In this document: one piece after another, positions 5,607-39,275 of the stretch
How the letters are laid out: each line of letters begins with the position of its first letter
How positions within the stretch are numbered: the first letter of the stretch is position 1
Virus record (IMG/VR): IMGVR_UViG_3300013006_002409
Coordinates: 1 to 43,501 of that record
Direction: 5' to 3' (one strand)
DNA length: 43,501 nucleotides
Origin: a virus
Translations under genes and position numbers: made by a program
The notes under the pieces: generated by a model
Databases searched by the model: none
The model's input: only the letters and a program-made list of their open reading frames with translations
What the model was told of the DNA's origin: nothing

Positions 5607-8600
5607 TTAATCCGGACCTTCAAGGTTCTCGATGAAGCCGACCACATCGCGGATGATGTGGAGGGCGGAGGCGGCGGCGGCAGAGGTGCCAGAGAAGCCC
5701 GCCCCGCCGGTGGCGAGGGTTTCCAGATCCTTGAGCGGCTCGACCTTGCCCTTGCTCCACTTGAGCGGGAGCGCGGCGGCGTCTTCGACAAAATTCAGCA
5801 TCCCGCCCTTGGGCATGAATTGGCCAGTCGCGGCCCATGTAGAGGCTTCCACCATCCCGCCGAGGTATGGCACCGCACTGAGCGGTCCGGTGGCAGCCAT
5901 GAGCGCAAGGCGGCCTGGGCTCCAGTAGCGCTCGTCAAAAATTTCATCATCATCATCATTGCGAAGATCGCGGCTGATGGCGCGGAGCAGGGTGGCAAGG
6001 ATGCCGCCGATGATCCAGACCTTGGCGGCGGTGAATGCGACGTTGCCCGCCTTGTCCAAGCCGGAGGTGTCCCGGCGCATGGCTTCGTAAACCAGCAGGG
6101 ACCCTTTTTGGCGTGGATCGCTGGAGAAGTTCCAAATGGCGCGGAAGGCGGGGTTGCCTTGGTTGGCGACTTCCAGCCACGAGCGCGCGCCGGTGCGGGT
6201 GGGTTGCGCGACTTGATCGGTGAGGCGCTCGGCTTCGCGGTGGGCGGCGGCGGCGTCCTTGGTGATCTTCAGATGGTAGTCGTAAAAAATGGCATAGGTC
6301 CCCGCAGTGAAGAGCGCATCCGCCCCGGAGATGGTTTCTCCGAGTTTTGCGGCGAGGAACTTGGCACGGTTCGGAGTTCCCGCCCCCATGCCTTGCAACA
6401 TGTCCCGCACGAGCGGCGGCATTTGCGAGGCGCGGCGCTGGATGTAGTCCGAATTGATGGCATCCCCCCAGCCGAGCCGCCCGGCAGAGAGCTTGGCAAA
6501 GCGGGTGAGGAATGCCCCCAGCGGCATCTTAAAGGACGCGGCAGCAAGTTGCAGCGACTGCATGGCCAGCACCGAGACGCGGCCCACCAGCGCGGCTTGG
6601 GAGATTCTGCCAAGCATGCCGTTGATTTTCCGTCCCCATTGACTACCAATGTTTGCGCATTGCACGCCACCGAGGGCGAAGTAGTCGATCCATTTCGAGA
6701 GCGTGGTGGCGGCGGCTTGTCCACCCGCAGCAAGGATGGCGGAGCGGGTTTCCCAGCGGTTGATGACGCCCAGGGCATCGCGGGAAAATTCCCCGTAGGC
6801 GATGAAGTGTTCCATCTGCCGGGCGTGGGTGAGGAAGACTTGGAAGGCATCCTTGAATTCCGGTTGCGCGATGGCCGAAAAGCTCCGGTTTTTCAGGCTG
6901 CCGGGTGTCATGCCCGCGCCCATGGTGTCGCCGCTTACCGGGTCCATGATGGTGTCTGCCTTGCCTTGCTTCGGATTGATGGAAAGCGGCGCGTACATTT
7001 TGTGACGCGGCATGGAGACGCTCCAGATCCGGCGGAACACGTCATTGATCCGCTCGTATTCCTCGCCGTAGGATTGGCCAAGAAAGGCCATGACGGCCTT
7101 GCCCTCGCGGGAAAGCTGGCTTTCGATGGATGCGGCGGAGTCATCGTTCCACCCCCAATTCGAAACGATGGCACCGGTTTCCTCACTGATGATGCCTTGC
7201 ATGTGGCGCTTGCCGTCCTCTTGCCGCCACATGAGCAGGAAGGTGATCGCGGAGGCCTCGCTGAAGGCTTGTTGGACTCCGAGCGCATCGGTCACCTGAA
7301 TCGTTTGGCTGGTGGCCATGCGGTGGCGGAGCTTCTCGCCGTCGAAACGGTTGCCGGAAAGCGTGTCGAACAGAGATTCCAGGCTGTTCGCCTTGGCTTG
7401 GAAGCCATCGAAGGCGGCATTGCTGGCGGCGAGCTCGCGGCCGGAAAACCACTGGGCGGCGTCTGACTTCTCACCGAACAGCACATTGACGAGCTGGCCG
7501 AAGCTCAGGAACTCCCAGGACATGGCCTTGATGCTGCCGACCTTGGTGGCGTCCGTCTGCTTGGCCGCTTCCCGCTCCATGCGGGCACCGGTCTTGCCGG
7601 TGCCCTTGATGGCAGACGTGCGGAGCTTGCCAAGGCGCTCACGGCGGCGGCTGTTCTCGATGGCTAGGGCTTGGAGTCCGCCGAAATAAATCTTGTCCCC
7701 TTCCAGTACGGCTTGCTCGCGGCGGGCGGCATCGGCGGCGGGCCAATTCGTGGTGAGCCGGATCATCTGGGCCTTCACGCGCGCGAGATCGGCGTCTTTG
7801 ATTTCCGTGTCGGGGTTGTCGGCAATGGCATCGTATTTGTCGGCTTCCGCTTCACCCACCACAAAGGATTGCCCCATGGCCCACTCCGCCACGCGGAAGA
7901 TGTCGTAAGCATCCGCAGCAATGGAGCCGGTGGGGCGCTGGCCTGCCTCGTTCGTTTTTGGGGCGGCTTTTTTGAGGAGCTCTTCCCACTCCTTGGCGTA
8001 TTCCACGCGGAGGAAGGTTTCAAGTTCCTTGTCGGCCTTGGCCAGCTTGTCCTTGAGGTAGGCCAGCCGGGCGGCGTCCGTGCCGATCATGGAAATCTGG
8101 GTGTAGCCACCGATTTTCCCGCGAATCTCTGCGGGCAGCGCGAGCAAGATGGCGTCGAGCATGCGAAGCGATCGGCGGATTTCCTCCTTGTCGGAGAAAT
8201 TCACCTCTTGATCCTTGCCCTGGGTGGCAAGCCATTCGTTGGCTTCTTGTTTCGCTTCGAGCTTGGCCTCGCGGATTTGCTCCTGAGCCATGACAAGCAG
8301 TTCCTTCATGCTCGCCACCGTCTTTTGCTCCACGAGCAGGGCTTCCCACAGGGCGTCTGCGGTGGGTTCCTTGATGAGCCCCTCATCATAGAGTTCTTGC
8401 GCCGCTTGGTCCGGCATTCTCTGACCGCCGAAGACGGAGCGGGAAACGCCGTCGCTGCCGTCGTAGTCGCCGGCACGGTGGAGCTGGAACATCTCGGGAT
8501 GCTCGCGGATGGCGGCGGCTTTGCTCTTGAGCCGCCCGCGCAGGGGCGTGGTAGGGTCTGCTAGGAAAGCGTGGACGGGCTGGCTCTTGATCTTTGCCAG

Positions 8601-11600
8601 ATCCTCGTCCGCCATGAGTGCGCCGAACCGTTGGTGAATGAGCGCAATCTTCTCTTCCGCTGCCAGTTCCTCGCGGGCCATCGCTTCGCGGCGGAGATCG
8701 CCCTTGCTGCGGCGGATGCCGGACAGCGCCGTCATGCGCTCGATTTGCAAGCGCATGGTGTTGAAGTCCCGCGCGATGCGGGACATGACGTAGGTGCGCC
8801 GCCGGGGGTCGTCGATGCGGGCAAGCGCGTGGTCGGAGAGGATGCCCGCGACCTGGGCAGGGCCGAGGGAGAAGGCGGGATACGTCGTAGGGTCCGATTC
8901 ATTTACCGCCCGAGCCTCGGCAATCTGCGCCTGGGTGGGTAACGTGCCAAAGGAATATTCCTGGGTGGAGTTATCCGCCACAAACACCGTTCCCGCGTCG
9001 TCGATCGGCACGTAATGCAGTTGATCCGCCACCGCGCTTTTTTCCGTGACTGGCAAGTCAAGCTGGAGCTGTTCCACCAACGCATCCATGACATCGAGAG
9101 GGTCGATGCTCTTGAAATCTGGCCCATTCAGGGTGTCTTGCAGCCATTCCCAAAACGGGGCTTGTTGATCAGCCGATTCCGCGTGTCGGGAAATTTGGTC
9201 GATGATTCCAGTTCCGGCCACTCGGGCAGCGGTTGCCCGTTTTGCTGGTAAATCGGTGGGTCCATCGTCAGCCAACAATCGGCCCCACCATCCGGCATTT
9301 TCATCTGAGCGGAGTTCGGGGGGGGCGGTGTACGTTTGGATTTCATGTCCGTCTGGAAAAAGAACTCCGGTAGCGCTTTTGTAATAAAGCGTGGGTCCGT
9401 CAGTGCGCAAGTTGAAAGTGGCGTAACGCCCGCCAATCGAAAAGCTGCCGGAATCTTCCTGAACTCGCTCGCCAACAACACCGCTTTCCAATCCATAGAA
9501 AGCGGGCGTCGCTGAATAAAGACCCGTCTCCATGCCTGATTCATACCAATTCCGGCCCTTTTCATCGACGTAGTCCACGATCATGTCAGTGAGCATATTG
9601 TCCCTGTTCATGCCGTGGAATTTGTTAATCATCCGCTCTGCTTCCAGTTTGGAAGATGCTTTCGCATGGAGCATCAAAAATGCTCCCCCTTGACTTAACG
9701 TGTAAGAAGCCAATTGGTCTTTGGTGATTTGCAAAATATCAATCGCGGACCCGGTAAATGTTGAGGCGATTGCCCCTCTTGCCGTGGTAATAAATCCTAA
9801 AATATGATTCGGGTTTTCCCTGTCACCTTCGATGTCACGAGCAATCAATGCAACCTGGTCAGGACTCAATGCTTCGCGCCCAAGATCATTTACCTTGTCA
9901 ATCAAGCGACTTGGCCACGCATACGGATCAACTTCTTTGCCTACTTCACGCAAGGCATACTGTGGAATGCGATGATCATTCACCACTCCTATTTCGTCAA
10001 TCGTCGCAAAAGATGAATGATTAATCACTACATGATCCACCATTCTAATCCCATGCTTCTTCATTTCCTCAGAATGGAGGAGCGTGACTCTTAAGTCCGC
10101 CCTTGATGGGCTAGGATCACCGCTTGGGTGGTTGTGAATCAAAAAATAACTGTCAGCCTTGGCGGCTTGTAAAAATGCCAAATGCTCCGCCAGCCCTTCC
10201 TCAATGGTTTTCCCGCCCGCAAATACCGCCGCCGAGGTAGGAACCCGCGAAGTGATCGCCATGGAATCAAGAATCTGATAGCCTTCCCCGCCTTTGTGGC
10301 GTTTGGTCCGCCGCTTGGTAGCCAACAGATAGAATGTTTCAAAACGCGGATTTCTCAAGGCTTGGGCTTTTACTGCCAATTCCTCCGGCGAGCCAATCGT
10401 TTCGCCAATGAACCTTACTTGGAGATCGGTTTCAAGACCGCTGGCGAGGCGTTGCCGTATGATGGCCGCGTTTCCGATTCGTCCGCGTAAATCCCGTTCT
10501 TGAGCCAGTCCTTCGGTGGTGGCGGCAACTTCACGGGCATCCCCTTCAAGGATGCTTTTCGAGAATTCGAGTAGGAGTTGGCGTTTGTCTTCATAGGAAG
10601 TTTTAGGCTGTTCCAAACGTAGTTCCTCTTCCCCGATGGTGTCAAGAAGTGACTTGTGGAATGAGCCAATCGAAAAGGAACCCTCCCCGCCCATCTCCAT
10701 TGGCGTCCCGTTCTCTTCCGTGATCTTGATCTTGGATTCGTCGAAGATGACATAGTTGTAAGAGCCGCTTCCGCCATCCCGGCTATTTCCATCCAGGTAA
10801 CGGATGCCGGGGATGCCCTTGGCCAGCAAACCCATGGAAACCTTCGCGGAGTTGTCACCCGAAATGGCCCGCATTCCAACCTTATCCTGGCGGTTTGCTT
10901 TCGCTTGCGCTTCGTAAAAATCCCGCACGTTTACATTCCATCGGGATAGCTTTCTTTCAATTGCTGCAATGTCGCTTTGCAGCTGACTTTCTTCAAAAGT
11001 CTCTGGATTGATTTGGCCCTCCAGTTCTTTCAGCTTCGCCCGCAATGCATCGTTTTCGGATTCATCTATGCCAAGCGCTGCCTTCACCTTCTCACTCTGT
11101 TCACTCAGCGGCTTGTCCCAGTCCAGCAGATCCTCCTCGTTCACGTCAAGCGTGACGGTGTAGAGGTTGGCAGCAGCTTCCGCAATAGCAAGGCGTGCTC
11201 TCCCTTGTTGAAGTAGTGCCAAGCCTTGCGCTTCTGTAAGCGTCTCATCCAAAATAGAAAGACCGTCCAAGATATCTTCATCTGAAACTTTAGCATTCAT
11301 CTGACCCGCCACCCACGCGGGTCTGTCAGCACTAAATCCCGCATCACGTAGTTTCTTGAATTCTGGATGCAGTTGAGTATAAGATTTCGCAACTTCCCGA
11401 TTTACTGCAAAATACAGCCCCCAGCCAAACGCCTGCGCTCCCTCTCCCGTCCCGATCTTGTCGGTGCTGAACTTGTCCACCTTGTGCGGCGTGCCGTGGT
11501 AGGCACCGATGGAGAACGCTGCCGGGCCGATGACACTCGGCGAGCCTTCCGCGCCTGGGAAGGTCTGGGTTTGCGGCGTGGGGGTGACCGTGGAGCGGCC

Positions 11601-14600
11601 AATCGAAAACGGAAACGTCCCTTGATCTAGTCCACCGTCGCCCAGAATGCCGCCCGCGCTTTCTCCGCCACCTCGTAACGGGTTAGAATACGCTCCTGCA
11701 CGTCGGCCGGAAGATGCGATATCGATAAGCTTGGCGCTGTTTTCGGCATTGCGGCGGGTGTTGCTTCGGCTGACTTCGGCTTCGGCTTTGTTGAAGAGTT
11801 GCTTGAAGGTGCCATCGAAAAGAGAGTGCATCACTGGCAGCACTTCGTCAATGCCTTTGCCGGTGGCAGCAGCTACCTTTTCACTAAGTCGCTCGATGTC
11901 CCTTGGCTTGGTGATCCGTTGCTCAGTGGAAACCAAGGTCGCCACGCCCAGCACCTCCACGCCGTTGTCCATCAGCATCCGGGCAAAGGCAATCCAGCTT
12001 TCGCCGGTGTTGTGCACGTCCTCGGTGATAAATACCCGCTTGCCTTGGAGATCGGCAATAACTTTCGCCACGGGCTCGAATGCTACCGGGTCCGCTTCCT
12101 TCTTAAAAAACGTCCGCTTGTTTTTCGCTTCCCCCTTGGCCCTCGCTATGCCCACCGTCCGCTTTTCAATCGCTTGCCCAAAATCTTTGGAAATTCGATT
12201 TGCCAGTGCATCAGGTAGAATGTTCCGCCCGCTGGTCGATGGCATGGGAAGCAACACCGCATCACGCGGAATCCCGGCAAATGCCGCCGTCTTGTAATAC
12301 TTCGAGACGATTTCCTTCGCTCGCTCCGGGTCCGCCCCTGCATCCAGCCACGCCGTCTTGTCGTGGCGCAGGTCCCGAACATTGGAGGCACTGAAAAACG
12401 GGCGGTCTGCCCGACCAATCGAAAACGGAATGTCATCCGCTTCCATGTCAGCATCGTGCCCGCCCATCATGCGGTCAAATTCCTTTCTCACGGCGGCGTC
12501 GTGTTCGGTTTGCTGGTCGAGTCCGAGCAGCTTGTCGAGGTAGGCGTCGTAGCCTTCCTTGTCAAAGGTGCCGTCGCGCTCCGCCTTCTTCATGGCGATG
12601 GCGCGGGAAAGACTCAGCCCCCAGCGGGTGCGGACAGCCTGCATGAATGCGACCCACTTGCCAATCGTGCCAGGCATGAGCTTGGCCAGCGCGGTGAGGT
12701 TGCGAGAAATCACGCCGCGAGTGAGGCCAAACTTGCCCTTCCCGTCTTTCTTGCGAGTGCGGAGCAGTTCCATTTCCCCAATTTCAGAAAACGCCTCATC
12801 GAGCATGGCTTCAATGTATTGTGCCGGAGTTCCTTTGAACCCTTTTGGAATCAATTCCACGGGCACGTTACCGCTGTTGATATGCTCATCGGTGATTCCC
12901 TCAGGGATAAAACGCAGTTGCACGCCGTCCTTGGTCGTCTTTCCTGCCAGCACGGTATCCAACGAACGAAGCAGGGCAATCTCATCAGCGCGGGTGATGG
13001 TGCCGAGCTTGCGTGCGCCGCGCCGGATACCGTGGAAAGTTTCGTGAAAAACCTCCGTCACTGACGCCCCGTTAAACAGCCGATTGACGGTTTGTCTCAT
13101 TCCTAACGCAAAATCAGTGTTTGAATAACCGAGCACGGAGCGGGCGATGTCGCCGGTGCCGCCTTCCGCCTGTTCCTTTAGCGCGATTTGCGCAGCATAG
13201 CGGGCAGCAGATGGGGCCGTTGGATGGGATGGGTCAAACTCCCCGAGATTTACTTCCAGCGTGGACGCAGGATCCAGCGCCACCGCTGCCTTGGCCGCTT
13301 CCATGAGTGAGCCAAGCGCGGCGATTTGATCCGCTTTTAGGTTATCCAGTGCGACGGTGTGGGCGCGGGCGATGCGAAGTGCGCCGGAAAGGTCAGGCGA
13401 CACGCCGAGTTCCTTACCATCCGCATCAAAGACAAAGATTCCCTCGTTGGTCTGGGTCATCGTCGGGGGCGAGTAGCCGAGCCGCCCGAGGTCGGTCTTG
13501 GCTTGGCGTTGGCTGGCCAGTTCCACCTTGCGCGCCTCCACCGCCGCTTTCGCTTCTTCCGTGTTGGGGTCGTGGGTGGCCATGGCGATATCCACGGCGG
13601 TGGCGAGTGATGCCGGACCTTCTGCCGCACGGATGGCGGCAATGCCATCCGCTGTGATGCCCAAGGCTTGCAGCTCAGTGGTGCTGGCGCTGGCAAAAGC
13701 CGCATTGCGCGACTCTTGCGACAGCCCGCCAGCGGCCCCGAGGATGGCCAGCGGAAGCAGGGTCAAAAAGATTTCCGGGGCTTGCGCCCAGGTGCCCGCA
13801 AGTTCCTTGCTCCAGTCCACATCCGGCACATCTTCTGTGAGCGCAGCGGCGAGGTCTTGCACGCCATAGACGAGCGAGTCTTGCACGAGCTCGATGCCGG
13901 TTTCCGCCGTGGCAATGGTACCGGCTTTGACGGTGCCGCGCAGCACCCGGTTGGTGATCTGGTCACCCAGCGCATCCAAGGCCTTGGTGAAGCCCGGCAG
14001 CTTGCGCGACCAGATGCCGAAGCCGACTTTTTCCAGCGCGATTTGGGGCAGCGCGATGATCGGCGCGAGCCCTTCCGCGATGGCGGTGGCTTCCTCGTCT
14101 GTCTTGCCCGCCGCGAGCATCCGCCCGCGCATTTCCTCGTAGGCTTGCCCTTCCATGGCAAACGCCATGGTACCCATGCCCAAGACCGGCACGGCCATGG
14201 TCAGGGAAATGCCCGTGACGCCGGGCGCTTGGTAGGCGACATTTTCCCAGAACCCCGGCTTGCCGTCTCCAAACGCGGACTTGAGCGGATCATAATCTTC
14301 CCGCGCCACCTTGCGCACATCTGCCGCGAAGTTCCGGCGCATTTGAAAATCCTTTTGCCCCTGCTGCCGCGCCGCTTCCGCCGCCGGATAGTTCTCGGTG
14401 CCGTAAAATGCATCCGCAAAGCCCAAGGCCATGGGGGTGGGTTCTGCCATGCCGAGCGCTTGCGCGGACTCCACCGCATTCCTCCCGTAGTCGGAAATGG
14501 CCTGACCTGTCTGCTTGCCCATATTTGCCCAGAACGTCGCCCGTTCCTCGACCGGCAGCGCCTTGGCGCGGATGGCCAGCGCGTCCATGAATTCCGGGCG

Positions 14601-15377
14601 TTGCTCCGGCGTCAGCTTGGCGTAGGCATCCATCGCCGCAGCGGTGATGTCGCCATTTTGCTTAAAAGTCCGCCACACGTTTACAAGCGGTTCACGGAAG
14701 GCATCCACCTTTTCTTTCGCCCGCTGCCGGGTCTCGTGCCAAGCTTCGAGGTAATCGGCTTCGCGCTCGGGATCATACCCGGCGTGGGTCTTGAGCTTTT
14801 GCCGGAATGCCGCGTAGCCGCCGGACGGGTCACTCGGCAGCATGGCATCGTGGTAGGCGGCAAGTTGCAGGTCTTGGCCCAGCGCTTTGGCATCCTTGCG
14901 CTTGCCCGCATCTTTCTTAATCAGGGTGTAAAGTTCCTCCGGCGTGCTCGCCATTTCGTTGAAAACGGCCAGACTGGCCACCTGCATCTGCACGGCGCGT
15001 TGCAACTCGGTGGGGGCGGGCGGCTCGTCGTGGTGGAGTTCCATCCACGATTCATTGATGAGCGTGCGCTTGGCGGTTTCTGGATCCGCCTCGAAGTCGA
15101 GATTCATCCCCGCAAACGCTTTGTCCGGATCTTGGACGGCAGCGTCCAAGGCATCTTGGCCGGACCGCCGCCAATCGCTCAGAGCTTGGTCGTAGTCCTT
15201 GTCCTCCTCGACCCACCGGCTTTGCCCAAACGTGTCCAGCATGGCCGGTGGTGGGGCCGAGGATTGGGGGATGCCCAGCACCCGCACCGGCGCGATTTCC
15301 GGCTGAGTGGGTGCGGGCGCGAAGTTGGTTTCGGCGGAGTTGTCCACCAAGGGGATGTCGGAGATTTTGAAGGCCAT
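5607..15377 (-). CDS. Giant polyvalent internal virion protein (gp16 slot): zincin, PRTase, ART, JAMM domains
   Basis: The product has 3256 residues; T7 gp16 has about 1320. Visible parts: a helical N-terminal region with a hydrophobic stretch near 385-410; a zincin motif HETFH (H778-H782) with candidate third ligands E861 or E865; a phosphoribosyltransferase-like PRPP loop, FITEDVHNTGES, near 1117-1128; an ADP-ribosyltransferase of the polyvalent type starting AYHGTPHKVDKF at 1292 with GWGLYFA and a late IRYLDGNSRD; and a RadC-like JAMM domain with H1748-x-H1750-x10-D1761 (HNHPSGDPSPSRAD). The C-terminal 1090 residues are helical and resemble large polyvalent-protein associated domains. The linker [PAS]FS[IL]G occurs six times, with F at 985, 1257, 1288, 1568, 1979 and 2169. 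The protein is probably packaged and ejected with the DNA. Enzyme calls rest on motifs; activity is inferred. Confidence 0.85.
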   Translation of the reverse strand: MAFKISDIPLVDNSAETNFAPAPTQPEIAPVRVLGIPQSSAPPPAMLDTFGQSRWVEEDKDYDQALSDWRRSGQDALDAAVQDPDKAFAGMNLDFEADPETAKRTLINESWMELHHDEPPAPTELQRAVQMQVASLAVFNEMASTPEELYTLIKKDAGKRKDAKALGQDLQLAAYHDAMLPSDPSGGYAAFRQKLKTHAGYDPEREADYLEAWHETRQRAKEKVDAFREPLVNVWRTFKQNGDITAAAMDAYAKLTPEQRPEFMDALAIRAKALPVEERATFWANMGKQTGQAISDYGRNAVESAQALGMAEPTPMALGFADAFYGTENYPAAEAARQQGQKDFQMRRNFAADVRKVAREDYDPLKSAFGDGKPGFWENVAYQAPGVTGISLTMAVPVLGMGTMAFAMEGQAYEEMRGRMLAAGKTDEEATAIAEGLAPIIALPQIALEKVGFGIWSRKLPGFTKALDALGDQITNRVLRGTVKAGTIATAETGIELVQDSLVYGVQDLAAALTEDVPDVDWSKELAGTWAQAPEIFLTLLPLAILGAAGGLSQESRNAAFASASTTELQALGITADGIAAIRAAEGPASLATAVDIAMATHDPNTEEAKAAVEARKVELASQRQAKTDLGRLGYSPPTMTQTNEGIFVFDADGKELGVSPDLSGALRIARAHTVALDNLKADQIAALGSLMEAAKAAVALDPASTLEVNLGEFDPSHPTAPSAARYAAQIALKEQAEGGTGDIARSVLGYSNTDFALGMRQTVNRLFNGASVTEVFHETFHGIRRGARKLGTITRADEIALLRSLDTVLAGKTTKDGVQLRFIPEGITDEHINSGNVPVELIPKGFKGTPAQYIEAMLDEAFSEIGEMELLRTRKKDGKGKFGLTRGVISRNLTALAKLMPGTIGKWVAFMQAVRTRWGLSLSRAIAMKKAERDGTFDKEGYDAYLDKLLGLDQQTEHDAAVRKEFDRMMGGHDADMEADDIPFSIGRADRPFFSASNVRDLRHDKTAWLDAGADPERAKEIVSKYYKTAAFAGIPRDAVLLPMPSTSGRNILPDALANRISKDFGQAIEKRTVGIARAKGEAKNKRTFFKKEADPVAFEPVAKVIADLQGKRVFITEDVHNTGESWIAFARMLMDNGVEVLGVATLVSTEQRITKPRDIERLSEKVAAATGKGIDEVLPVMHSLFDGTFKQLFNKAEAEVSRSNTRRNAENSAKLIDIASSGRRAGAYSNPLRGGGESAGGILGDGGLDQGTFPFSIGRSTVTPTPQTQTFPGAEGSPSVIGPAAFSIGAYHGTPHKVDKFSTDKIGTGEGAQAFGWGLYFAVNREVAKSYTQLHPEFKKLRDAGFSADRPAWVAGQMNAKVSDEDILDGLSILDETLTEAQGLALLQQGRARLAIAEAAANLYTVTLDVNEEDLLDWDKPLSEQSEKVKAALGIDESENDALRAKLKELEGQINPETFEESQLQSDIAAIERKLSRWNVNVRDFYEAQAKANRQDKVGMRAISGDNSAKVSMGLLAKGIPGIRYLDGNSRDGGSGSYNYVIFDESKIKITEENGTPMEMGGEGSFSIGSFHKSLLDTIGEEELRLEQPKTSYEDKRQLLLEFSKSILEGDAREVAATTEGLAQERDLRGRIGNAAIIRQRLASGLETDLQVRFIGETIGSPEELAVKAQALRNPRFETFYLLATKRRTKRHKGGEGYQILDSMAITSRVPTSAAVFAGGKTIEEGLAEHLAFLQAAKADSYFLIHNHPSGDPSPSRADLRVTLLHSEEMKKHGIRMVDHVVINHSSFATIDEIGVVNDHRIPQYALREVGKEVDPYAWPSRLIDKVNDLGREALSPDQVALIARDIEGDRENPNHILGFITTARGAIASTFTGSAIDILQITKDQLASYTLSQGGAFLMLHAKASSKLEAERMINKFHGMNRDNMLTDMIVDYVDEKGRNWYESGMETGLYSATPAFYGLESGVVGERVQEDSGSFSIGGRYATFNLRTDGPTLYYKSATGVLFPDGHEIQTYTAPPELRSDENAGWWGRLLADDGPTDLPAKRATAARVAGTGIIDQISRHAESADQQAPFWEWLQDTLNGPDFKSIDPLDVMDALVEQLQLDLPVTEKSAVADQLHYVPIDDAGTVFVADNSTQEYSFGTLPTQAQIAEARAVNESDPTTYPAFSLGPAQVAGILSDHALARIDDPRRRTYVMSRIARDFNTMRLQIERMTALSGIRRSKGDLRREAMAREELAAEEKIALIHQRFGALMADEDLAKIKSQPVHAFLADPTTPLRGRLKSKAAAIREHPEMFQLHRAGDYDGSDGVSRSVFGGQRMPDQAAQELYDEGLIKEPTADALWEALLVEQKTVASMKELLVMAQEQIREAKLEAKQEANEWLATQGKDQEVNFSDKEEIRRSLRMLDAILLALPAEIRGKIGGYTQISMIGTDAARLAYLKDKLAKADKELETFLRVEYAKEWEELLKKAAPKTNEAGQRPTGSIAADAYDIFRVAEWAMGQSFVVGEAEADKYDAIADNPDTEIKDADLARVKAQMIRLTTNWPAADAARREQAVLEGDKIYFGGLQALAIENSRRRERLGKLRTSAIKGTGKTGARMEREAAKQTDATKVGSIKAMSWEFLSFGQLVNVLFGEKSDAAQWFSGRELAASNAAFDGFQAKANSLESLFDTLSGNRFDGEKLRHRMATSQTIQVTDALGVQQAFSEASAITFLLMWRQEDGKRHMQGIISEETGAIVSNWGWNDDSAASIESQLSREGKAVMAFLGQSYGEEYERINDVFRRIWSVSMPRHKMYAPLSINPKQGKADTIMDPVSGDTMGAGMTPGSLKNRSFSAIAQPEFKDAFQVFLTHARQMEHFIAYGEFSRDALGVINRWETRSAILAAGGQAAATTLSKWIDYFALGGVQCANIGSQWGRKINGMLGRISQAALVGRVSVLAMQSLQLAAASFKMPLGAFLTRFAKLSAGRLGWGDAINSDYIQRRASQMPPLVRDMLQGMGAGTPNRAKFLAAKLGETISGADALFTAGTYAIFYDYHLKITKDAAAAHREAERLTDQVAQPTRTGARSWLEVANQGNPAFRAIWNFSSDPRQKGSLLVYEAMRRDTSGLDKAGNVAFTAAKVWIIGGILATLLRAISRDLRNDDDDEIFDERYWSPGRLALMAATGPLSAVPYLGGMVEASTWAATGQFMPKGGMLNFVEDAAALPLKWSKGKVEPLKDLETLATGGAGFSGTSAAAASALHIIRDVVGFIENLEGPD

Positions 15378-15380
15378 GGC

Positions 15381-17366
15381 TTAAATTTTGGAAATTTTGG
15401 TCACTCGGCCACCCCAGCCATTTGAGCCATCTTTCGGCCGGTAAATGTCGATGGTTTCCGGCAAGTCGCCGGTGCGTGAATCGGAAGCAGGCACGGTGTC
15501 GTCATAGGACACGAGGAATTCCCCCTGGGTGGTTTCGATCTTGATCTTGTCGCCGTGTTCCAGCCCGAGGCGCACCGCCAGACTTTTGGAAATGGCGGCA
15601 GACTGCCCCGCCACGAGCTTGTTGTTGCGGTGGCCGATGCCCTTGGCACTGTTGCTGTCTGGCGTGGTGTCGGAGTCGTAGCCGTAATTGGAGAGCTTGA
15701 GCCCGCCCTTGGGGATGGCCATGCTGGTTTCTCCCATGCCCGCCCGCGTGGGCCGTGCCGGGATGAGTTGCCGCTTGGCTTCTTGCTTGATGGACTCGCC
15801 GGTGATCCGCTTAAACGCGGCGTCGATCTCCGCAGGCTTGGCCTCGGGATTGAGGCGCAGGTAGTCTTCCATTTGCATCCTCGCAATGCCGTAGTTTCTC
15901 GCAGTGGCGAAATTGGTCTCGTTCGCCGCGTCCACCGCACCGGCTGCCGCAAAGGGAATCGTCGGCTGGCCGAGGCGCAGCGCATTGGCCGCCGCCAGTT
16001 CGATCTCGCTAGCGTTCACGCTGCCACCAGGGCGCTTACTCCACAGCTCGATCATCTTGCGCTGGCCAAGTGGCCCGCTTTCCCGTGCCGCAGCCTCGAT
16101 GCTGGCGGCTTGATCTTCCGAGAACCCCAGGCGCTGGAGCTTGTCTTTGTCCTTGAGAAAGCCAGCGTCCACGATGTCCTGGGTGGTCATGTTCTCAGGC
16201 TTCACGGTCTGACCGAAGCGGCCCACTTTGTGCAGCTCGTCCACTTGCTGGAGCGTAAACTCGCCGTAGTTCTTGGCGGGTTCTGGGCTTTCGAGGGTGC
16301 GGAATTTCTTGGTGAGAGAGTCTTTCTGGAAGCCGGGTTTAAGGTCGCGCATCATGCGGTCAATCTGGGCAATGCGAGCATCAGCATCCTCGGCCTCCGG
16401 GTTGAAGTCCGCGATGGCGGCGGAAAGTTGCCCGTAGACTTGCGCCTGGTAGTCCGGGGACGCGACCCTTTCTTTGTAGTCATCCGCCTGCCGCAGCCGC
16501 AGGCCGTTCTTGAGTTCCTCCACCGCAGTGGGGCGCAGGTCTTGGGTGAGTTCCTCAATTTGTTGCTCGGTGGTGATTTGTCCGCTCACGATGCCGTCCA
16601 TGATGTTGGCACTGGCCTCGTAGGTTTTCTTCCGCATCTGGCCCTTGGCGAAGTCCTGCATTTGCTGGTAGCGGGCGGGATCGGTGCCGGGTGGCACTTG
16701 GTCGGCAGGGTGCAGGTCCAGCCACTCCGCCGGGTCCTCGATCACGGCCTTTTGCTCTGCCCGCTCTTGCAATGTTTGCTGGATTTTAACCTTGGCCGCT
16801 TGCCCTTGCTCCGGCAGTTGGACGCCCGCCGCCACGCTTCGATCCACGATGGACATGGCCAGCGACTCGTCCCCGGCTTGCACCGCTGCATCTAGCTCAT
16901 AATTTAACTGCAGCCCCGCCCGTTTCATGCTGAGCGCTGCCGAGGATGCGGCCACCTGCACGGTCCCCTTGTGCGCAAACTCGGTGTGGAACTGGCGCAG
17001 GCTATCGCGCACTTGGGGCGCAAGCTTGGCGTTCTCGGCGATGCTCTTAGTCCGCTCGAAATACTGGCGGGTTTTCTGGATCCGACTCACCGGGTCCGGG
17101 TCTTTTTCCAAATCGATCTGCAGTTGCGAGAACCCGGAATCGATCTGCATCCGCGCCTCAGACTCGGCGCGGGCGTTCTCCAGCTTTTGCGCTCGGTCGG
17201 CCACGTCCTGGAAAGCCTCGCCCACCCCGCCGATGGCGTCCGCCACGGCACCGCCCAGCGCGGCATTCACCGCCAGCGCGGGAGCGAGGCGCACATTGGT
17301 CTCCCGTGCATCTGGCGCGTCGATCGGGGTGCCTTGCAGGCCGGGAACGTTGGGGATTCTGATCAT
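15381..17366 (-). CDS. Internal virion protein, gp15-like, with C-terminal 3D/DPBB-like domain
   Basis: This 661-residue protein is largely helical and coiled-coil-like from about 50 to 530, like the podoviral internal core protein gp15 whose slot it fills. The C-terminal 110 residues differ. They begin SNYGYDSDTTPDS near Y561, continue with GQSAAISKSLAVRLGLEHGDKI, and end with D622-D623 and GDLPETIDIYRP (D640). That pattern resembles the 3D (Asp-Asp-Asp) or double-psi beta-barrel domain of MltA-type lytic transglycosylases, so this part may cut or bind peptidoglycan during DNA ejection. The start ATG overlaps the stop of the preceding gene (ATGA). The stop is 3 bases before the start of the giant protein. 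Confidence 0.8.
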   Translation of the reverse strand: MIRIPNVPGLQGTPIDAPDARETNVRLAPALAVNAALGGAVADAIGGVGEAFQDVADRAQKLENARAESEARMQIDSGFSQLQIDLEKDPDPVSRIQKTRQYFERTKSIAENAKLAPQVRDSLRQFHTEFAHKGTVQVAASSAALSMKRAGLQLNYELDAAVQAGDESLAMSIVDRSVAAGVQLPEQGQAAKVKIQQTLQERAEQKAVIEDPAEWLDLHPADQVPPGTDPARYQQMQDFAKGQMRKKTYEASANIMDGIVSGQITTEQQIEELTQDLRPTAVEELKNGLRLRQADDYKERVASPDYQAQVYGQLSAAIADFNPEAEDADARIAQIDRMMRDLKPGFQKDSLTKKFRTLESPEPAKNYGEFTLQQVDELHKVGRFGQTVKPENMTTQDIVDAGFLKDKDKLQRLGFSEDQAASIEAAARESGPLGQRKMIELWSKRPGGSVNASEIELAAANALRLGQPTIPFAAAGAVDAANETNFATARNYGIARMQMEDYLRLNPEAKPAEIDAAFKRITGESIKQEAKRQLIPARPTRAGMGETSMAIPKGGLKLSNYGYDSDTTPDSNSAKGIGHRNNKLVAGQSAAISKSLAVRLGLEHGDKIKIETTQGEFLVSYDDTVPASDSRTGDLPETIDIYRPKDGSNGWGGRVTKISKI

Positions 17367-17884
17367 GGGATGGAACCGGTGTATTTGTTGTGACCGTAAG
17401 CACTCACGGATTTCGAGACGCCAGAAAGCCCGGTGCTAAATGCCTCCAAGGTGCTGGCCTGCTTGGCTTGACCTGCCTCCCAAATGCCCATCTTGCCTTG
17501 CCGACGCACCACGTCCGCCCGCTGGTAAATGCTGGTGACCTGCATGGTGCTGGCGCGGGCGGCGTCACTGATGGCGAGCTGGAAATTCCCCGCCGTTTCG
17601 CCCAAGATGTCCATGGCCGTGCCAGAGCTCATCAGGGTGCCGGAGCCAGACAAGCGGGCGCGGAGGCTGGCCATGGCCTTGCGCTGGTTGATGCGCTCGC
17701 GCTTGACGCCCTCCGCAAATTCGAGCTGTTTGTTGCGGGCTTCCGCTTCGAGGTTCTTGGCCTCGGTCTGCGCGTTTTTGTCGTTCACCTTGGCAACCCG
17801 CTCGGCGGTTTTCCCTGCCTGCATCTGGCTGTAAACCTGCAATCCGGTAGCAATCCCGGTGACTATTAAGCTCGCAACGCCCAT
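17363..17884 (-). CDS. Internal virion protein, gp14-like
   Basis: The start is taken as the ATG at 17882-17884 (MGVASLIVTG). The open frame upstream lies inside the previous gene and the small intergenic space and is unlikely. The 173-residue product begins with a short hydrophobic stretch, followed by a long charged helix (AKVNDKNAQTEAKNLEAEARN) and a glycine/serine-rich turn (RLSGSGTLMSSGTAMDIL), a layout shared with podoviral gp14-like core proteins. It sits exactly between gp13-like and gp15-like genes. T7 gp14 forms part of the ejected channel across the outer membrane; the same role is inferred here. Confidence 0.75.
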   Translation of the reverse strand: MGVASLIVTGIATGLQVYSQMQAGKTAERVAKVNDKNAQTEAKNLEAEARNKQLEFAEGVKRERINQRKAMASLRARLSGSGTLMSSGTAMDILGETAGNFQLAISDAARASTMQVTSIYQRADVVRRQGKMGIWEAGQAKQASTLEAFSTGLSGVSKSVSAYGHNKYTGSIP

Positions 17885-17885
17885 A

Positions 17886-18311
17886 TCACAACCGTAGCGG
17901 GTCCGGTGCGGGCAGCGATTTGAACAACTGGACAAGACCGCTGTCCCCGCTGGCATACCCGCGCCGGGTAAACAGCCGGATGAATGAGGCGTGGCAATGG
18001 GTGCACATCACGGTGTGGTAGTTGAGCGCCGCCGCTTCGTTTTCCAGAAACTCAATCACGTCGAGCATAGCATGCCCCCGCGCGATGGCAGATGCGGTGG
18101 GATCGGTGGCGGTCCATGCCATCACCGCCACGCCGGAGCCGGTAGCGTCCAAGTACAGGAACCCGCAGGCCATGTCATCCCCCAGCACGCCCAGGGTGGG
18201 CAGCACGTTGCGCGGTGGGGGGCTGCCCCGGCCTTGCCAGAATCCACAAATCCGGGCGTAGTCATCCAAGGAAATGCGCCCGTCCGGTTCCCGAGTGATG
18301 GTCCGGATCAT
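17886..18311 (-). CDS. GNAT-fold protein in the gp13 position
   Basis: This 141-residue protein has the strand-helix order of a GNAT acetyltransferase: an N-terminal helix, a two-strand meander (MACGFLYLDATGSGVAVMAW), a long helix, and a C-terminal HASFIRLFTRRGYASGD segment like the usual end of GNAT proteins. T7 gp13, a minor internal virion protein, belongs to the same broad fold, and this gene lies in the gp13 position between gp12-like and gp14-like genes. The acetyl-CoA pyrophosphate-binding loop is not clear, so catalytic activity is doubtful. The start overlaps the end of the nozzle gene by 4 bases (ATGA). Confidence 0.7.
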   Translation of the reverse strand: MIRTITREPDGRISLDDYARICGFWQGRGSPPPRNVLPTLGVLGDDMACGFLYLDATGSGVAVMAWTATDPTASAIARGHAMLDVIEFLENEAAALNYHTVMCTHCHASFIRLFTRRGYASGDSGLVQLFKSLPAPDPLRL

Positions 18312-23874: not shown

Positions 23875-24753
23875 TCAGGAATCTTTGTTCAGTAGGCGGG
23901 CAACTTCTTGATAGGCCGCGCGCTTTTCGTCGTCGCTGCCGTCCTTGTACTTCTTGCCCCACACCGGGTCGGACCCGTCCATGATGGAGTCTGCAATCTG
24001 CCGTGGGCTGCGCAGATCGCCCATACCGGCGGGGGTGCGGATGCTGTCCTCGCGGGTGAGTTTGCTCACCTCCAGCAGCATTTTGCCAAAGGCAGGATTG
24101 TCCACCAGCGAGGCGAAGGACGCATCCTCCGGCGCAATGCCCGCCTGGGCGGCCAGCGTGGTGGCCAGGTGACGCACAATGGATTTGTTTACCTCGAAGT
24201 CGCCGCGCCATGTGGCAATCAGATCGTCTTGGGCGGCCTTGGTCGCTTTCGCTTGCTCGTCCTCATAGGCTTGCTGCACTTCCGCCTGAATTGCCTGATA
24301 CTCGGCCACCATTGCCCGCACCGCAGGGGCACTGGCATGGTTTTTCTGTGCCACCGCTGTGATGCGGTCAAGCACGGACTTATCCAGCTCGCTGGCACCC
24401 TCGGGCAGCGCAAGCCCGTACGCAGTCGGAGTGCCTTCCACCGGCACCTGGGCGAGCGCATGGAAGCGGGAAATGTCTTCCGGCTGCGCACCCTCAGTCG
24501 GGTATGACGGACCCGTCTTGCGGAAATGCAGGTAGCTTTTGGCTAGCCCCTTCACGTCCTTGAAGTCTTTGAGCGCATCGGCATGCGGTGAGAATTCATC
24601 CCCGAGCTTGCTGGTCCAGCCCTCGGCAAAGCTGCCGTCCGGGTTGAAATGCACGGGTGCCGGTGATGCCGGTGGTGTGGAGCTGCCACCTCCGCCGCCG
24701 TCGCCGCCTTCGGGGGGGGCTTCGTTCAATAGTCTTTGGAATCGATGTTTCAT
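23875..24753 (-). CDS. Scaffolding protein (gp9-like)
   Basis: This 292-residue acidic protein starts with a disordered Gly/Pro/Ser-rich segment (residues about 10-35). Then come the motif GWTSKLGDEFSPHADALKDFKDVKGLAKSYL, typical of podoviral scaffolds and head assembly proteins, and a long helical region with many Ala, Gln and Glu. The C-terminus is a charged helix, as required for docking on the capsid protein. It lies immediately upstream of the capsid gene and downstream of the portal, the T7 gene 9 position. The ribosome-binding region is weak. Confidence 0.82.
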   Translation of the reverse strand: MKHRFQRLLNEAPPEGGDGGGGGSSTPPASPAPVHFNPDGSFAEGWTSKLGDEFSPHADALKDFKDVKGLAKSYLHFRKTGPSYPTEGAQPEDISRFHALAQVPVEGTPTAYGLALPEGASELDKSVLDRITAVAQKNHASAPAVRAMVAEYQAIQAEVQQAYEDEQAKATKAAQDDLIATWRGDFEVNKSIVRHLATTLAAQAGIAPEDASFASLVDNPAFGKMLLEVSKLTREDSIRTPAGMGDLRSPRQIADSIMDGSDPVWGKKYKDGSDDEKRAAYQEVARLLNKDS

Positions 24754-37994: not shown

Positions 37995-39275
37995 ATGAGT
38001 GCCAAGCCCATCAGCCACCGGAGCGTAAAAGTCTCCAAAGGCAACAGTCACCTCACCGTCTACCCGTGGCACCACCCCGCCACCGGCAAACTCCGCTGGC
38101 GGTTCGCGTGGCGCACCCACGAAAACCAGCCGTGGGCCTACGTAACGCGCCAGACCAAAGCCGCAGCCATCTCCGCCGCAGAACTGAAGCTCGACGAGCT
38201 CGACCAAGGCGGACTCATCTGGTCCGCCCTCGCCCCCGCACGCCGCCGCTTTCTCGAAGCCATCCACCATCATGCCACCGCCGCCGACGAAGACGCCCTC
38301 CTTGCCTTCCTCACCAGCCGCCACAGCTCCGCCGAGGTCACCGCCAGCGTCGCCAAGTTCCTCGCTTGGAAAATCACCACCAAGGGCGAGGAAACCCGCA
38401 ACCTCGCCAACGTCCGCCGCATTCTCGAGCCCATGGCCAGTCACTTCGCGGGCCAACTCATCAGCGACATCACCGCAAATGCATTAGTCGCCTGGTGGAC
38501 GACTCGTTGCCAAGGCCTCGGCAAGAAAACGTCCAACGAAGTCCGGGGTGCCCTCGTCGCATTCTGGAACTGGTGCATCTGGGAAAAACTCTACCCCAAA
38601 GAAGTCACCCCCGCCGAGCGCATCCCCCGCCAAGAGCTCGATCAACACGAACGCCGCGTCCTCACCCCCGCCGAGTTCACCGCCCTTGCCGCCCACATCA
38701 GCTTGCCCTTCCGCCCGGCACTGGTCCTCGGGGCATTCGCCGGCATGCGCCCGGAGGAAATCGCCCCGCCCACCCGCAAAGGCATGTCCAAGAAAGGCAA
38801 GCGCGGCCTCCACCGAGAGGAGATCGACTGGCAATTTTCCGTCATCAATGTGCCCTCCGAAGTCTCCAAGACCAAAACCCCCCGCAAAATCCCCTTGCTG
38901 CCAGGCACCCGCAACTGGCTCGAATGGGCCGGCATTCGCCCAGGTCAGACAGGGCCCGTCTGCCCCCAAAACCCGAGCGAAGCCGGGGAAACCACGCGCC
39001 TAGGAAAGCTCGTCTTCCCCAACGAAGGTTGGCCGCAAGACGCCTTGCGCCACTCCTACGGGTCCTACCGCAATGCCATCATTCGCTCCCTGCCGCAAGT
39101 CGCCGAGGAAATGGGCAACTCCGAGGCCATGCTCAAGCGGCACTACCACAACCCGAAGAACCGAGAAGAGGGCGAAACGTGGTTCAATCTAACACCTCTA
39201 ACTGTTCCGATTTGTTCCGATGGAAATGAGGTTACAGCGCAAGAATACCTCAAAGCGATGAATTCAAAACCTTGA
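37995..39275 (+). CDS. int: Tyrosine integrase
   Basis: This 426-residue recombinase has an N-terminal arm-binding region, a core-binding SAM-like helical domain and the catalytic domain. R252 lies in AGMRPEE, R352-H353 in DALRHSYGSY (the usual first His of HxLRH is Asp349), and the nucleophile Y384 in KRHYHN. It integrates the phage into the tRNA-Val 3' end. The gene ends 35 bases before attR and its last codons contain the right-arm TGTTCCGA pair. Possible starts near 37995 overlap the membrane-protein gene's alternative starts. Confidence 0.92.
   Translation: MSAKPISHRSVKVSKGNSHLTVYPWHHPATGKLRWRFAWRTHENQPWAYVTRQTKAAAISAAELKLDELDQGGLIWSALAPARRRFLEAIHHHATAADEDALLAFLTSRHSSAEVTASVAKFLAWKITTKGEETRNLANVRRILEPMASHFAGQLISDITANALVAWWTTRCQGLGKKTSNEVRGALVAFWNWCIWEKLYPKEVTPAERIPRQELDQHERRVLTPAEFTALAAHISLPFRPALVLGAFAGMRPEEIAPPTRKGMSKKGKRGLHREEIDWQFSVINVPSEVSKTKTPRKIPLLPGTRNWLEWAGIRPGQTGPVCPQNPSEAGETTRLGKLVFPNEGWPQDALRHSYGSYRNAIIRSLPQVAEEMGNSEAMLKRHYHNPKNREEGETWFNLTPLTVPICSDGNEVTAQEYLKAMNSKP
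39203..39220. promoter_or_regulatory. Putative integrase arm-type sites, right arm
   Basis: Two TGTTCCGA copies (39203-39210 and 39213-39220) match the pair at 903-921 and lie about 90 bases from the attR core, within the coding sequence of int. Spacing is 10 bases here and 11 on the left. Their role as integrase sites is inferred. Confidence 0.6.

Follow-up and report, generated by a model that had tools for sequence, protein, structure and literature searches.

Viral polyproteins carry repeated short protease sites between their domains, and the consensus of these sites is specific to each virus. The phage protein described here resembles them in that a short motif with its own consensus is repeated between domains (hereafter the punctuation, its variants being called dialects), but the likeness is one of sequence. 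Among phages, self-processing by a zincin domain has been proposed for the class of polyvalent proteins (Iyer et al. 2017; PMC5512222). As in that class, our protein is a giant with unrelated enzymes (ART, PRTase and RadC), a zincin-like motif and a gene slot for injected proteins; unlike here, neither punctuation nor dialects turned up in a term search of the text of that paper. In phage P1, the head-packaged anti-restriction proteins DarA (PMC12810830) and DdrB (PMC5512222) are cut during assembly, DarA reportedly at its N-terminus by the prohead protease Pro (PMC12810830). Our proposal is alike in that a phage protein would be cut, possibly in assembly. It differs in that Pro reportedly cuts the N-terminus of DarA and uses no repeated sites, and in that the Peptidase_S78 and S49 models gave no match in the 24 virus records searched here, several of which are fragments. 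A literature search found no published description of such linkers or dialects, and none of the papers found reports cleavage at the sites. The protein class is known; the punctuation as one of its features is new.

Gene setting and cassette architecture

The window analysed here is the whole stretch of 43,501 bases of virus record IMGVR_UViG_3300013006_002409. The giant protein of 3256 aa is encoded on its minus strand (5607-15377) in a T7 gp16-like slot, adjoining a gp15-like ORF (15381-17366) and the gene for an internal virion protein (17363-17956; phrog_418). Portal, scaffold-like and capsid genes lie farther along, and the order of the giant ORF and its virion neighbours is the same in phages vir555 and MD07. 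Several unrelated enzymatic domains are held in one chain encoded among virion/ejection genes, as in polyvalent proteins, and the giant protein is presumably injected into bacteria with the DNA. Elsewhere in the window, an integrase-like ORF (37995-39275) within the T7-like podovirus layout suggests a temperate phage, and an ORF with a match to glycosyl hydrolase family 8 (1-825) is truncated by the window edge.

All parts of the giant gene were mapped on the minus strand. The conserved N-terminal core (N-core; residues 1-984, 12426-15377), homologous throughout the family, ends at the first site, FSIG at F985 (12414-12425). It is followed by a PRTase cassette (residues 989-1256, 11610-12413), FSIG at F1257 (11598-11609), a 27-residue spacer belonging to the ART cassette (11517-11597; 31 residues from F to F, with a GP(A/T)xFS end common to relatives), FSIG at F1288 (11505-11516), the ART cassette itself (residues 1292-1567, 10677-11504), FSIG at F1568 (10665-10676), a RadC/JAB cassette (residues 1572-1978, 9444-10664), FSIG at F1979 (9432-9443), a cassette without assigned function (residues 1983-2168, 8874-9431, delimited from the sequence), FSLG at F2169 (8862-8873) and the C-terminal core (C-core; residues 2173-3256, 5610-8861), conserved among relatives. 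In Pfam, the RadC/JAB match was clear (1739-1791, E 2e-11). The ART-PolyVal (1293-1337, E 1e-4) and PRTase (1102-1160, E 4e-4) matches were weak, the former below the cut-off and the latter below the curated cut-off, yet both segments are conserved in relatives of the giant protein, the PRTase segment being held in common with the relative L010 at 82% identity.

Using the C-terminal part as query, we found 12 viral loci at 29-86% identity; searches with C-core and ART-cassette profiles then raised the total to 163 distinct large ORFs. Within this family the N-core and C-core are conserved and the cassettes between them are exchangeable and move between phages. The ART cassette of seven relatives is bordered on either side by an invariant F-S, the residues after F-S being variable. 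In Sulfitobacter phage phiGT1, a gene of its own within the head cluster encodes this cassette (387 aa; L215:4918-6081, phiGT1_5), and Octadecabacter virus DB2 likewise has a separate gene homologous to a segment of the relative L093 (L219:2752-4233, DB2_6). Such homologues would suit cassettes that work as free proteins. Both phages are isolated marine podoviruses, and the separate cassette genes lie in structural clusters. No isolated, named phage with the same punctuation was found; USP_18, F116, Dfl-JY45, MD07, vir555, pPME5 and p382 are without repeated sites of such kind.

Position of the F-S-[IL]-G sites at domain boundaries

The first-pass annotation had listed six copies of the motif, each at a domain boundary, and an HETFH motif (residues 778-782, 13032-13046, minus strand) ahead of the first copy; the scan returned all these positions exactly. 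The motif [PAS]FS[IL]G was observed six times against 0.02 expected by composition (P about 1e-13), and FS[IL]G six times against 0.087 (P about 6e-10). A chance origin of the motif is ruled out by these composition counts together with the homologues. The boundaries were then checked independently of domain models, by counting ends of local alignments to relatives that fell at most 6 aa from a site. Such ends clustered at five of the six sites (12, 31, 34, 31 and 17, against 1.9 expected), including the first and the last. The exception was F1979, with one alignment end nearby; the neighbouring piece has few homologues, and the alignment of one relative stops at 1982. All six copies stand at cassette boundaries and the motif is conserved at boundaries in homologues; its occurrence inside domains or its loss from boundaries, which would have spoken against the proposal, was not encountered there. 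Inside the N-core the motif was avoided (2 against 7.3 expected), while its avoidance in the C-core was not specific, and the other proteins of the same phages gave a single chance-like match.

In the structural model of the ART cassette, which takes in three linkers, those at 1257 and 1568 lie, to within a residue or two, in stretches of predicted disorder with pLDDT under 50, and the one at 1288 goes directly into the first ART strand. A Foldseek search of the ART model against PDB gave no match at E 0.001, and a search of BFVD gave one match, to an ART-PolyVal-like phage protein.

Lineage dialects of the punctuation

Comparison of about 160 giant ORFs of related phages indicated that each giant protein repeats its own short punctuation ahead of its domains. 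The site consensus is x-[FY]-S-[ILVM]-x, five residues with sharp limits. The linkers had at first been taken for one fixed sequence, a description replaced here by that of dialects which vary with the protein or lineage: the window, L009 and L010 use FSIG or FSLG, L017 uses FSVI/FSII/FSMI, L120 TFSL, L081 FSIS, and a clade of about 20 NYSI. In an unbiased count of tetrapeptide over-representation, the top tetrapeptide was often the linker (NYSI in 18 proteins), and the same count detected non-FS punctuation ahead of domains in other families (FMPA, TLFQ, LLAK and RFAV). FMPA or FLPA precedes domains of the unrelated giant polyvalent proteins L133, L123 and L152; among L175, L137 and L142, domains are preceded by TLFQ, by LLAK (six times, in L137) and by RFAV (five times).

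Among 93 ART-bearing proteins, 47 recurrences of the tetrapeptide before ART were counted elsewhere in the protein that carries it, where the other proteins would lead one to expect 7.5 and the permutations reached 21 at most, and the pre-ART site tracked the dialect of the rest of the host protein even with ART and whole-protein similarity allowed for (partial Mantel r 0.45, permutation maximum 0.19), kinship among the sequences limiting the exactness of these tests. As judged from these comparisons, the pre-ART copy conforms to the dialect of the host protein more than to the ancestry of the shuffled ART. Since comparison with the nearest whole-protein relative gave no difference, the dialect is common to a lineage and not unique to one protein. 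Domain punctuation with lineage dialects is well supported by this set of sequences.

The sites might alternatively be junctions of cassette shuffling, that is, short DNA homologies for recombination with no function in the protein. Cassettes do move, four of the six window linkers (at 9433, 10666, 11599 and 12415, minus strand) share the identical 11 bases TTTTCGATTGG, and same-codon pairs are modestly above expectation (697 against 589 of 1542), all of which speaks for such junctions. However, sites were more alike within a protein than between proteins only at offsets -1 (identity 0.40 against 0.13), 0, 2 and 3 around the fixed S, identity being flat on both sides; this coherence was equally strong in 424/572 pairs with differing F/S codons, and the DNA flanking the sites showed an identity of 0.30, the level of unrelated DNA. 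Because pairs that differ in synonymous codons are equally coherent and the flanking DNA is unrelated, the likeness of the sites does not stem mainly from DNA copied recently; both observations suggest that selection has acted on the protein instead. Furthermore, phages that swap cassettes have unlike dialects, and the homology would be missing just where shuffling needs it. We consider junctions of this kind a highly improbable explanation. Alignment breaks accumulate at the sites: HSP ends near them were 7.2-fold above random, and breakpoints coincided with 75% of non-ART sites but with 26% of other FS and of random positions. The identity of four window linkers over 11 bases is rare under codon usage and perhaps reflects recent linker copying in the window phage. 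No gene was seen to be split naturally at a linker; the splits observed lie inside domains, look like sequencing or frame errors and were rejected as natural proof.

The zincin-like site and a proposed cognate factor

Processing by the zincin-like motif had been suggested for this protein, as well as by Iyer et al. for polyvalent proteins (PMC5512222), which here would mean that a domain of the N-core cuts the linkers in cis. The model of this domain was confident (mean pLDDT 87.5), with HETFH in one helix and E861 in a later helix, the two motif helices that zincins need, and it matched no solved fold in PDB at E 0.001 (Foldseek). Among 81 homologous N-cores, E861 was invariant (81/81), whereas the position of HETFH was occupied by HExxH in 17, E[ED]xxE in 29, EExxH in 16, RDxxQ in 11, HExxE in 7 and another motif in 1. 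HExxH and the downstream Glu on a second helix are both present in the window, but HExxH is lost in 64 of the 81 cores, some of which have no metal ligand left in the motif (RDxxQ), and the punctuation stays: it is present in all five main active-site classes, with 3-10 sites in EExxE and RDxxQ N-cores. In the sequences compared, the motif was shown to be family-wide and independent of an intact HExxH, and no cis protease conserved wherever sites occur was found among the N-core homologues.

In favour of autoproteolysis, at least in the HExxH clade, FS[ILV][GA] is the dialect of 11 of the 14 HExxH cores for which one could be classified, and HExxH stands ahead of the first site in the window and also in L133, L142 and L175 of other families. 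L010, however, belongs to the same clade and has LEETIH, yet carries FSIG/FSLG at six sites. Against cleavage in general, the virion RNAP of N4, itself a polyvalent protein that includes a zincin, is packaged without being processed (PMC5512222). Active-site class and dialect go together in a striking cross-table, but both are clade features with few independent changes; the 2-3 independent pairs on the tree are too few to bear out a coevolution of enzyme and substrate. Because cores without HExxH keep the punctuation, the N-core zincin is not a general explanation unless its other forms are active. Cutting in cis by this domain appears unlikely to us. The suggestion of zincin-driven processing survives as possible in the HExxH clade of the window and is doubtful for a general agent, HExxH being present in only 17/81 cores. 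The alternative motifs are themselves well conserved, for example in L093, L116 and L091 (RDxxQ) and in L015 and L079 (EExxE), and their second position stays acidic. N-cores with a replaced motif and the invariant E861 possibly hold a non-classical active site or a binding pocket.

A gene named 'protease' by PHROGs (phrog_458; window 23875-24753) was present in 21 of 25 records. Its alignment contains no invariant catalytic Ser, His or Cys, and its slot is annotated as scaffold in phiGT1; on these grounds it was rejected as the cutting agent, and its product is most likely a scaffold protein. That no protease was found with S78, S49 and phrog_458 checked is in line with another explanation, in which the sites are short docking motifs, each cassette tag binding the ejection apparatus, a chaperone or the cores, for instance as a pause or threading handle. 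The conformity of dialects and the sharp limits of the site fit any cognate recognition, docking included, but a tag need not sit exactly at every domain start, nor directly on the first ART strand. We assign docking a low probability.

Taken together, recognition by a cognate factor fits the sequence data best, and specific proteolysis is most likely its form. In our estimate there is an even chance that the F-S-[IL]-G copies serve specific recognition, most likely as sites at which a polyprotein-like ejection protein is split by proteolysis. By this cleavage model, the sites would divide the giant protein into N-core, exchangeable effector cassettes and C-core; a cognate factor would read the site and cut at or next to F-S, and the effectors would be set free by the cut, whether in the prohead, at ejection or once inside the host cell. 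The zincin-like site of the N-core may be the agent in the HExxH clade of the window, though not the general one if the chemistry needs HExxH. Release of separate effectors, as first proposed, would fit well with the arrangement of sites. More tentatively, and with the balance somewhat against it, polyvalent proteins may be true polyproteins, the cassettes of which carry a lineage-specific cleavage code: effectors captured from other phages would have to take on the local code, which would itself coevolve with a cognate protease. That protease may be the N-core domain, acting through unorthodox active sites (EExxE, or RDxxQ plus the invariant Glu).

As the motif marks each effector start in a dialect of the lineage, processing is testable site by site. 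The punctuation lets effector boundaries be located in a sequence without other data and draws attention to a missing cognate factor. It also bears on how multi-enzyme proteins of several hundred kDa traverse the phage tail and act in the host.
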